Part shown: positions 3,833 to 5,935 of the stretch, one piece after another
Position numbering within the stretch: position 1 is the first letter of the stretch
Layout of the letters: every line of letters starts with the position of its first letter
From: Enorma massiliensis phI
GTDB lineage: Bacteria > Actinomycetota > Coriobacteriia > Coriobacteriales > Coriobacteriaceae
NCBI RefSeq assembly: GCF_000311845.1
Contig: NZ_HE978575.1
Span: forward strand, 17,846-63,405
Reading direction: 5' to 3'
Length of the DNA: 45,560 nucleotides
Translations under genes and position numbers: made by a program
Notes under the pieces: generated by a model
Databases searched by the model: none
The model's input: only the letters and a program-made list of their open reading frames with translations
Told to the model about the DNA's origin: nothing

Positions 3833-3860
3833 CAGACGCTACAGCAACAGCGCTCACCAC

Positions 3861-3895
3861 GCCCGCTGCCGGGGAATCTCGGCGGCGGGCGTTTT
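3861..3895 (+). terminator. Rho-independent terminator after rplI
   Basis: GCCCGCTGCC (3861-3870) pairs with GGCGGCGGGC (3881-3890), with one G-T wobble and a 10-base loop, followed by GTTTTG. It lies 28 bp after the rplI stop and probably ends the rpsF-rplI transcript. Confidence 0.75.
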
Positions 3896-4039
3896 GCGTT
3901 ATGCCACGAGGCGGTGAGCCGGGCGAATCGGAGGCGCGCATCTTGGCGGCTGCGGATTCACCGGTTCGAGCGCCCGCAAAGCCGCCGTTCGCGCGGAGCT
4001 CGGATGGTCCGGGCGGGTCCTAAAACTCACGTGCGCAAA

Positions 4040-4424
4040 CATTCAACATTCAAGAAAAGGTTGATAGTTTCTCTTGACAAATCGAGAGAGTAAGAAATCA
4101 ACAGGTCAACGGTTGAAAACTCAATATGAGCCAGATTCGATAGCAAGTTTTTCACAACCCTTTATCAAGAGCAGACGGTACCGCGTACGGTGGTTATCCT
4201 GCGCAATGTATAAAACAACACCAGTTACCTGTATGTTCACTAAATGTACAAATATCTGTGTGTAATAAAACCGCAAAAAGACAGTAAGAAGTGAATAACA
4301 GCAGGTAAAGAGTATAGCTGTTGAAAACTCGGTATGATGGGCCTGTCGAATTGTGGAAAACGTTGAAAACTGGTATTCCCGCTGAAAGCCGGGGCGGGGT
4401 TATCCACATCTGGATGTGGAAAGA
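4040..4424. other. AT-rich region with DnaA boxes, origin-like or DnaA-controlled dnaB promoter
   Basis: Composition drops sharply to AT-rich inside GC-rich surroundings. It holds one perfect DnaA box, TTATCCACA (4400-4408), and near-matches at 4148-4156 (TTTTTCACA), 4352-4360 (reverse strand TTTTCCACA) and 4415-4423 (reverse strand CTTTCCACA). Short frames are open in it, but none looks like a protein. Clusters of such boxes with AT-rich DNA are typical of chromosomal origins, although dnaA itself is not in the window; regulation of the adjacent helicase gene by DnaA is the alternative. Confidence 0.5.
4112..4376 (+). repeat. Three direct copies of GTTGAAAACT followed by TAT
   Basis: GTTGAAAACT begins at 4112, 4320 and 4362, and each copy is followed by TAT two or three bases later. 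The last two are 42 bp apart, close to four helical turns. They interleave with the DnaA-like boxes. Similar GTTGAAAAC and GTGGAAAAC words are familiar from bacterial origin regions; no binding protein can be named from sequence alone. Confidence 0.6.
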
Positions 4425-4543
4425 AAAAGGTGCAGAGAGCAGGGGAACGAGCCCTCTGCTCGGCAGCGGAATACTCTACCATGGGTGCTCGTACGTTATC
4501 TGCTGGGCGGCGTTTTGCACGCCGCCTCGTGTTCGAGAAAGGC

Positions 4544-5935
4544 ATGAGCGTGTCGCCGAATGATTACGCCCCCCTTGCCGTAGACCGTGGGGCCCATCAA
4601 GGCCTTCCCAATAACACCGAGGCCGAGGCCAACGTGCTCTCCGCCATGCTGCTTTCGCCAGACGTGGTGGACGATGCCATCTCCGAGCTCCGGATCGACG
4701 ACTTCTATCGCCCTGCGCACCGCGAGCTCTTCGTTGCGATGGTTTCCATGAACGAGCGGGCCATTCCCATCGATTCCATTTCGGTGGTGGACTTCCTCGC
4801 TTCTGAAGATAAGCTGTCTGCGGTGGGCGGCGAGGCGTACATTCTCGAGCTCGTGGGCAACACCATCTCGCTTGCCAACTGGCAGCACCATGCCGAGATC
4901 GTGCGTCGCGACTCGCTCCTCCGAGAGCTCATCAAAGCCGCCGGACAGATCAGCGAGCTTGCCTACGATGCGCCGCTCGATGCGAAAGAGGCTGTCGACC
5001 AAGCCGAGAGCCTCGTGCTCAAGATTACGGATCGCGAGGTATCGAGCGCGTATCGTTCTCTTACGGACTTCATGATCGAGGCCTACAACGAGGCGGCCGA
5101 GATTGCGGCGGCCGGCGGGCAGGCACACGGCGTTGCCACCGGTTTTCCGAGCCTCGATCGCTTGCTGCTCGGCATGCGCGAGGGCCAGCTCATCATCTTG
5201 GGCGCCCGTCCCGCCGTTGGTAAGACGTCCTTCGCCCTCAACCTTGCGCTCAATGCGGCTGCCGACGGCTGCACCGTGGGCTTCTTCTCCCTCGAGATGA
5301 GCGGAAAGGAAATCGCACAGCGCCTTATCTGCGCGCACGCAGCGCTCTCCATCTCAGATTTTCGCACGGGCCGCATCTCGCCCGAGCAATGGGCGAACAT
5401 CAACGAGGCCACGCAGGAGCTTTCGAAGCTCGATATCCTTATCGACGATACGCCGGGCACCACCATCACCGAGATTCGCGCCAAGGCGCGCCGCATGCTC
5501 CACAACAAGGAGCGGGCTGTCATCATCCTCGACTATCTGCAGCTGGTGAGCCCACCGGCGGGCCGTCGTGCCGAGAACCGCGCGGTCGAGGTCTCGGAGA
5601 TGAGCCGTGCCCTCAAGATTATGGCGAAGGACCTCGGAGTGCCCGTCATCTCGCTCTCGCAGCTCTCCCGTGCGGTCGAGAGCCGTACCGGGAAGCGCCC
5701 CCAGCTTTCTGACCTGCGCGAATCGGGCTCAATCGAGCAGGACGCCGACATCGTCATGTTCCTCGACCGCTCGGCCGACGAGCAGGAGGCGTCGCGCGAC
5801 GACCGCCCGGACGAGGGCGTGACGCGCGTCATCGTGGCGAAGAACCGTTCCGGCCCTATCGGCGATGTGGACCTGGCGTTCGTGCCCGCATCCACGAAGT
5901 TCTATGAGCTTGATGGGATACATGGCGAGGGCTAG
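4544..5935 (+). CDS. dnaB: Replicative DNA helicase DnaB
   Basis: A 463-residue DnaB helicase, the usual length. The N-terminal domain starts with GLPNNTEAEANVLSAMLL; the RecA-like ATPase domain has Walker A GARPAVGKT at about residues 220-228, then GFFSLEMSG, Walker B IILDYLQLV and the arginine-finger region SDLRESGSIEQDADIV. It unwinds DNA ahead of the replisome as a hexamer. Upstream in-frame ATG codons exist (4430, 4481), but ATG 4544 follows GAGAAAGG and gives a family-sized protein. It follows the DnaA-box region and precedes purA, a gene order also seen in Firmicutes. Confidence 0.95.
   Translation: MSVSPNDYAPLAVDRGAHQGLPNNTEAEANVLSAMLLSPDVVDDAISELRIDDFYRPAHRELFVAMVSMNERAIPIDSISVVDFLASEDKLSAVGGEAYILELVGNTISLANWQHHAEIVRRDSLLRELIKAAGQISELAYDAPLDAKEAVDQAESLVLKITDREVSSAYRSLTDFMIEAYNEAAEIAAAGGQAHGVATGFPSLDRLLLGMREGQLIILGARPAVGKTSFALNLALNAAADGCTVGFFSLEMSGKEIAQRLICAHAALSISDFRTGRISPEQWANINEATQELSKLDILIDDTPGTTITEIRAKARRMLHNKERAVIILDYLQLVSPPAGRRAENRAVEVSEMSRALKIMAKDLGVPVISLSQLSRAVESRTGKRPQLSDLRESGSIEQDADIVMFLDRSADEQEASRDDRPDEGVTRVIVAKNRSGPIGDVDLAFVPASTKFYELDGIHGEG

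Follow-up and report, generated by a model that had tools for sequence, protein, structure and literature searches.

The gap between rplI and the replicative helicase gene dnaB holds a dense cluster of DnaA boxes, which raises the question of whether this DNA is a replication origin, a device that controls dnaB, or a site with some other use for the initiator. The window analysed here, the whole stretch of 45.6 kb, corresponds to C2:17846-63405 of a 2.28-Mb genome in three contigs, and the closest named relatives of its dnaB belong to Collinsella. An earlier note on this DNA had offered two readings of the cluster: the chromosomal origin itself, or a second site of DnaA binding through which helicase supply is coupled to initiation.

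The rplI–dnaB gap and its DnaA boxes

The rplI gene is followed by a terminator-like hairpin, so dnaB probably has a promoter of its own; comparable hairpins are expected 1.2 times per shuffle, and the call leans mostly on the location after the rplI stop. The start of dnaB is likely ATG 4544, as judged from GAGAAAGG at 4535, and the longest open reading frame opens at GTG 4430. The features of the region are as follows.

3859-3892, plus strand: terminator-like hairpin after rplI, with a 15-pair stem and a T-rich tail
4092-4424, plus strand: conserved element of about 330 bp, positions 1-333 of the profile R1 (192.9 bits, the window sequence itself being among the 18 sequences that built R1)
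4094-4106, minus strand: site A, GAAATCAACAGGT; in reverse reading ACC plus TGTTGATTT, in most relatives TGTGGATTT
4148-4156, plus strand: box 0, TTTTTCACA, a near-perfect DnaA box
4195-4214, plus strand: site B, TATCCTGCGCAATGTATAAA, with a CCTGCG motif; the stretch of the element that melts most readily begins here
4225-4254, plus strand: site C, TTACCTGTATGTTCACTAAATGTACAAATA; similar to TACCTGCGGTTTCAC in most relatives
4291-4307, minus strand: site D, GTGAATAACAGCAGGTA, with the CCTGC motif inverted
4319-4327, minus strand: box 1, TTTTCAACA, a weaker variant overlapping the first GTTGAAAACT of a pair 42 bp apart
4352-4360, minus strand: box 2, TTTTCCACA, a near-perfect DnaA box
4361-4371, minus strand: box 3, CGTTGAAAACT, immediately after box 2
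4376-4388, minus strand: site E, TTCCCGCTGAAAG; TTTGCGCAGAA in many relatives
4400-4408, plus strand: box 4, TTATCCACA, a perfect DnaA box, one of five in the genome
4415-4423, minus strand: box 5, TGTGGAAAG, kept in part of the set
4477-4484, plus strand: TACCATGG, a weak candidate for the -10 of dnaB, conserved by eye in the 18-row alignment
4544-5935, plus strand: dnaB, replicative helicase (TIGR00665, 2.3e-139; PF03796; PF00772)

The candidate -10 is graded weak because a consensus scan found no sigma-70 promoter near dnaB. The strong boxes lie approximately 70 to 160 bp upstream of it (4477), weaker ACC-TGYGG sites are located farther upstream, and the centre of the element is AT-rich.

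The AT-rich island that the earlier note had placed between the two genes is evident from base composition (G+C of 0.41 at 4040-4424, against 0.617 for the whole window), and the boxes that it had listed are present, with the perfect copy in box 4, the near-perfect copies in boxes 0 and 2 and the weaker variant in box 1. The motif TTWTNCACA has three matches in the whole window, where 0.73 are expected, and all three fall inside 261 bp of the gap. When the 421 bp at 4020-4440 were compared with 2000 first-order Markov draws of the same local composition, they contained eight boxes with at most two mismatches (random mean 1.5, reached by none of the 2000 draws), two with at most one mismatch (mean 0.13, reached by 0.85% of draws) and three TTWTNCACA matches (mean 0.12, reached by none of the 2000). 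Moreover, this cluster is the densest 400-bp window of DnaA boxes in the 384 kb scanned of the 2.28-Mb genome, scoring 12; the runners-up score 7 and lie near dnaA (L004) and in L009. Duplex stability dips over 60 bp from 4209, the third weakest such stretch in the window. Another of the five perfect DnaA boxes of the genome, at L003:4752-4760 on C2, is found in the gap before L003:4941-7448, which encodes an acetyltransferase fused to TsaD.

Three copies of GTTGAAAACT had also been reported, and they do occur at 4112, 4320 and 4362, the latter two 42 bp apart, and nowhere else in the window (0.02 expected). As an independent repeat, GTTGAAAACT was rejected, since the 18-row alignment described below identifies the copies as DnaA-box variants. 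Box 1 reads GTGGA[AT]AA in 16 of the 18 rows, and the copy at 4320 is a shifted DnaA box because those 16 rows carry GTGGAAAA or GTGGATAA exactly there; the present genome and G020 carry GTTGAAAA. The copy at 4362 is conserved beside box 2, and that at 4112 falls in a variable spacer.

The chromosomal origin lies elsewhere

The earlier note was right that dnaA is missing from the window, but the gene is present on a different contig (C1:79084-80859), followed by dnaN and a recF-like gene and flanked on its other side by rsmG, parA and parB. Cumulative GC skew, from sampled and local data, falls overall across C1:1-72 kb and rises past 80 kb, placing the minimum at C1:72-80 kb beside dnaA. On C2, skew is +0.075 at C2:1-17.9 kb and +0.034 in the window; among 11 later samples of this contig, one is near zero and one negative. 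Equal signs on both sides of dnaB mean that there is no switch at this gene, whatever the order of the contigs. The skew suggests a junction of C1:1 with C2:1, which would leave about 100 kb between dnaB and dnaA. The relative G054, assembled as a single contig, likewise keeps the sign of its slope at dnaB and has its minimum beside rpmH and dnaA, although its skew is weak and stays level for 50 kb beyond dnaA.

The element is not the chromosomal origin: the skew check, run in this genome and in G054, rejects that reading. Among the features of an origin, the element has the box cluster; it lies away from the skew minimum, and it is missing from 21 of 58 family genomes. The relatives examined have a separate, conserved DnaA-box oriC upstream of rpmH; most of the 28 relatives listed have an AT-rich gap there with TTTTCAACA, TTATCAACA or TTATCCACA and ACCTGTGGAAAA-like boxes; in G054, the gap contains one such box only. 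Between the origin gap and dnaA of the present genome, a 477-aa open reading frame (L004:8899-10332; C1:80898-82331, minus strand) encodes a HATPase_c domain, a Gln-rich middle and a possible winged-helix end; it is possibly a replication regulator, and a similar coding sequence was seen by eye upstream of rpmH in several genomes.

Conservation of the element and linkage to dnaB

A MAFFT alignment of 18 dnaB-upstream regions from four genera holds its spacing with few indels. These rows are 18 of the 20 dnaB loci supplied, out of 30 loci; L141 and L143, which lack the anchor motif, were left out, and the R1 profile later found the element in L141 (G041) after all. The 5ʹ half consists of GAAATCCACAGGT, approximately 100 variable bases, TTTTCCTGCGGAATGTATAAA, TTACCTGCGGTTTCAC, GAATAANCGCAGGT and CTGTGGAAAAC; about 25 bases after CTGTGGAAAAC, the 3ʹ half follows with ATTGTGGAAAACGTTGAAAAC, TTTGCGCAG, GTTATCCACA and TGTGGAAAG. 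In site A, GAAAT and ACAGGT are unchanged in all 18 rows, and box 2 has TGTGGA in 16 and TGTTGA in two. At the position of box 0, a TTKTNCACA-like box is seen by eye in L125-L130 except L124 and is absent in the others. Additionally, L127 and L130, of one genus, have a TTCACGTGGAACA stretch between element and dnaB (by eye), which we take to resemble part of the parS consensus.

R1, a sequence-only profile, was searched in 58 family genomes, including the 18 aligned. A single strong match (E<1e-16) was found in 36 of them; 21 had no match, all of them C. aerofaciens-like (so called from their common genus, near-identical dnaB scores and the named loci L045 and L050), and the only match in G034 is at chance level and away from dnaB. 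The element is therefore dispensable. In L045 (C. aerofaciens) and L050 (a Collinsella MAG), the DnaA box upstream of dnaB is absent.

Conserved DnaA boxes lie directly upstream of dnaB in 35 of the 36 element-bearing genomes, with the element 6 to 327 bp from the dnaB match and in the same orientation. The exception is G029, in which a 1934-aa open reading frame separates the two and the gap is 6.5 kb. Where present in single- or few-contig relatives, the element moves and flips with dnaB, which in G031 lies on the same side of oriC as dnaA and in G054, G042, G021, G023 and G022 on the side of rpmH. The dnaA–dnaB distance is 17-77 kb in nine relatives, three of which are without the element, and the element is about 5 kb from rpmH in G052 and G053. 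The distance from oriC is thus not conserved, the present genome adding a value of about 100 kb if C1:1 joins C2:1. In several genomes, the gene upstream of the element and dnaB is one other than rplI (by eye).

Weaker matches extend to the sister families. In f2, presumably the Atopobiaceae, R1 matches lie 121-252 bp upstream of the dnaB match in all 14 chosen genomes, and in f3 they lie 117-146 bp upstream in two of three, the third (G124) matching at the dnaA–rpmH gap; these 17 genomes were picked for having a match and few contigs. The main element boxes of f2 read TTTTCAACA or TTATCAACA in place of TTTTCCACA. A class-wide search matched 158 of 296 genomes at E<=0.01, a count that takes in weak matches to mere oriC boxes, as in G124, so claims beyond the family are limited to the 17 genomes checked.

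Box letters and the DnaA recognition helix

The recognition-helix motif of DnaA reads GRDH in most Coriobacteriaceae read and GR[STK]H in the f2 genomes read; the present genome, G020, G041 and the five C. aerofaciens-like genomes read have GRNH or RNH. The Asp of GRDH is presumably the equivalent of E. coli D433, which contacts the DnaA box. Boxes in the element of each genome were counted as C-type (TTWTCCACA) or A-type (TTWTCAACA). Among genomes with Asp, 30 have a C-type element, three an A-type element and three are tied; among those with Asn, Ser, Thr or Lys, one (the present genome) is C-type and 14 are A-type. The table covers 59 genomes in all, with six that have no element region, G041 (neither box type) and G226 (residue unreadable) standing outside these counts, and its entries are related rather than independent, most non-Asp genomes being of one family; its Fisher p is accordingly not to be read at face value. 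G020, with Asn, has A-type boxes throughout (0C/3A in both element and oriC). The exceptions are G019, G021 and G208, which combine Asp with A-type element boxes; the present genome (G000), which combines Asn with 2C/1A in the element; and G031, whose oriC is 0C/6A despite Asp.

In a held-out test, the residue was predicted before DnaA was read. Asp was right in 11 of 11 genomes and non-Asp in four of six readable ones (G208 and G021 wrong, G226 unreadable); for three C. aerofaciens-like genomes, the prediction was Asn, and it was right in all three; the ties G044 and G033, both with Asp, carried no prediction. Box letters at oriC and at the element correlate with a rho of 0.46 by rank test across 38 genomes with boxes at both sites, a weak value because the oriC of Asp genomes carries TTWTCAACA too. 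The association of box letters with the DnaA residue is strong but imperfect and amounts to a partial parallel change.

Taxonomic placement, used here rather than a tree, puts the number of lineages that lost Asp at about five: f2, G000, G020, G041 and the C. aerofaciens-like genomes. Of these lineages, the last lack the element and G000 has shifted only partially. The two congeners of the present genome keep Asp, and this genome may be caught part-way through the change, which would explain the GTTGAAAACT copies seen in it. In the C. aerofaciens-like genomes, loss of the element and change of DnaA specificity may be linked. In G041, both main element boxes (L334:564-606) read TTTTGAACA, and its oriC gap (L333) keeps TTTTCAACA and TTTTCCACA; this coordinated change is not explained by DnaA alone.

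A putative DnaA-bound array and its alternatives

The element at 4092-4424 is probably a cis-regulatory array of dnaB, putatively bound by DnaA and separate from oriC. The comparative data agree with the second reading of the earlier note, in which DnaA binds here and links helicase supply to initiation; the binding and the linkage themselves are presumed. In the proposed mechanism, DnaA would occupy the strong boxes 1, 2 and 4 first. With abundant ATP-DnaA, it would then also occupy the weaker CCTGCG-type sites, and the resulting oriC-like filament, immediately before the dnaB promoter, would switch dnaB transcription by either activation or repression. The output of dnaB would then track initiator activity, tying helicase supply to initiation. 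The array could also draw some DnaA away from oriC, a titration role compatible with regulation.

A site whose sole role is to titrate DnaA or to set its ATP state, lying at dnaB by chance and leaving dnaB transcription alone, is a rather unlikely alternative. Strong and weak boxes are densely packed as it would predict, the element is origin-proximal where this could be measured (the nine genomes at 17-77 kb), and in G029 it persists 6.5 kb from dnaB; furthermore, B. subtilis lacking six DnaA-box clusters outside oriC initiates early (PMC5295017). However, a pure titration site would have no need to accompany dnaB, whereas the element does so in 35 of 36 genomes, whichever side of oriC the gene is on, and the variable distance from oriC differs from that of datA and DARS, which is conserved within E. 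coli (PMC4585315). Recognition mainly by another protein, such as a replication-gene regulator that binds ACCTGCGG, with the DnaA boxes secondary, is improbable. Motifs of this type occur in four to five copies at fixed spacing and again immediately before dnaB in the Eggerthellaceae-like L052, L056 and L063, and in G041 the two main boxes changed together without a change at oriC. Nevertheless, the motifs have the TGYGG core of DnaA boxes, many relatives have ACC plus TGTGGAAAA in their oriC gap, and box letters track DnaA in most genomes. In L052, L056 and L063, the motif overlaps the apparent -35 region of the dnaB promoter (by eye).

Less probable still is an accessory or ancestral origin, at which DnaA would open the AT-rich DNA at about 4200-4270 and load helicase under some conditions. 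The oriC-like content of box array and easily melted stretch is in its favour, as are several weak R1 matches: of six in the family, two (G052 and G003) fall in the dnaA–rpmH interval, two (G019 and G020) are no farther than 1.3 kb from dnaA and two (G034 and G031) are outside the dnaA region, and the class-search match of G124 is again between dnaA and rpmH. Against these stand the constant skew at dnaB in this genome and in G054, a melting dip that ranks just third in the window and the absence of the element from a whole clade. A structured non-coding RNA or leader, which the length and conservation of this non-coding DNA and its partly inverted motifs might suggest, is scarcely credible: as a candidate it was rejected when RNAalifold gave eight pairs at -1.63 kcal/mol with no pair changed on both sides, and Rfam had no match in the element stretch.

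A bolder extension of the regulatory reading, advanced as a distinctly doubtful conjecture, is that the element derives from oriC and acts as a "second orisome". Assembly of DnaA on it would proceed through the stages seen at the origin, with co-evolution of specificity at the two sites and possibly with local unwinding; this assembly would time dnaB once per cycle and tune free DnaA, setting helicase supply and origin firing on one clock across an order of Actinobacteria.

To our knowledge, the matching of helicase supply to initiation has been little studied beyond a few models. Simple binding and reporter assays could test the coupling at the dnaB array, and the clade without the element, together with boxes that mostly follow the DnaA motif, offers natural variants for the study of DnaA specificity.

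Comparison with known systems

The kind of element is already known; for the depth of its conservation, its oriC-like make-up and its partial co-variation with DnaA, no earlier description was found for Coriobacteriia, Coriobacteriales or Collinsella in the open-licence literature searched. Like a bacterial oriC, it combines DnaA boxes, weak sites and an AT-rich stretch; unlike one, it has neither a skew switch nor dnaA and rpmH as neighbours, and a separate oriC exists. The datA, DARS1 and DARS2 sites of E. coli are DnaA-box arrays whose internal spacing is conserved (PMC4585315, PMC5295017), a property shared by the dnaB element. However, datA and DARS are not at a replication gene, their distance from oriC is conserved, and IHF and Fis sites are a feature of theirs.

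DnaA-box clusters outside oriC in B. subtilis were reportedly described by Okumura et al. in 2012. By binding DnaA, such clusters affect the timing of initiation (PMC5295017). They resemble the element in placing DnaA boxes near yet outside the origin; in contrast, there is here a single cluster, linked to one gene and moving with dnaB.

The DnaA-regulated dnaB and dnaQ of Caulobacter crescentus are said to have been the subject of Hottes et al. in 2005. DnaA boxes are predicted upstream of this dnaB, and the gene belongs to the DnaA regulon (PMC8203912); because of this published precedent, the dnaB element is assigned to a known kind. Both systems have DnaA boxes upstream of the helicase gene and a proposed link between helicase supply and initiation. 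The regulation here is one that we infer, and unlike the Caulobacter case, the element is an array of about 330 bp in another phylum, with strong and weak sites at fixed spacing and deep conservation.
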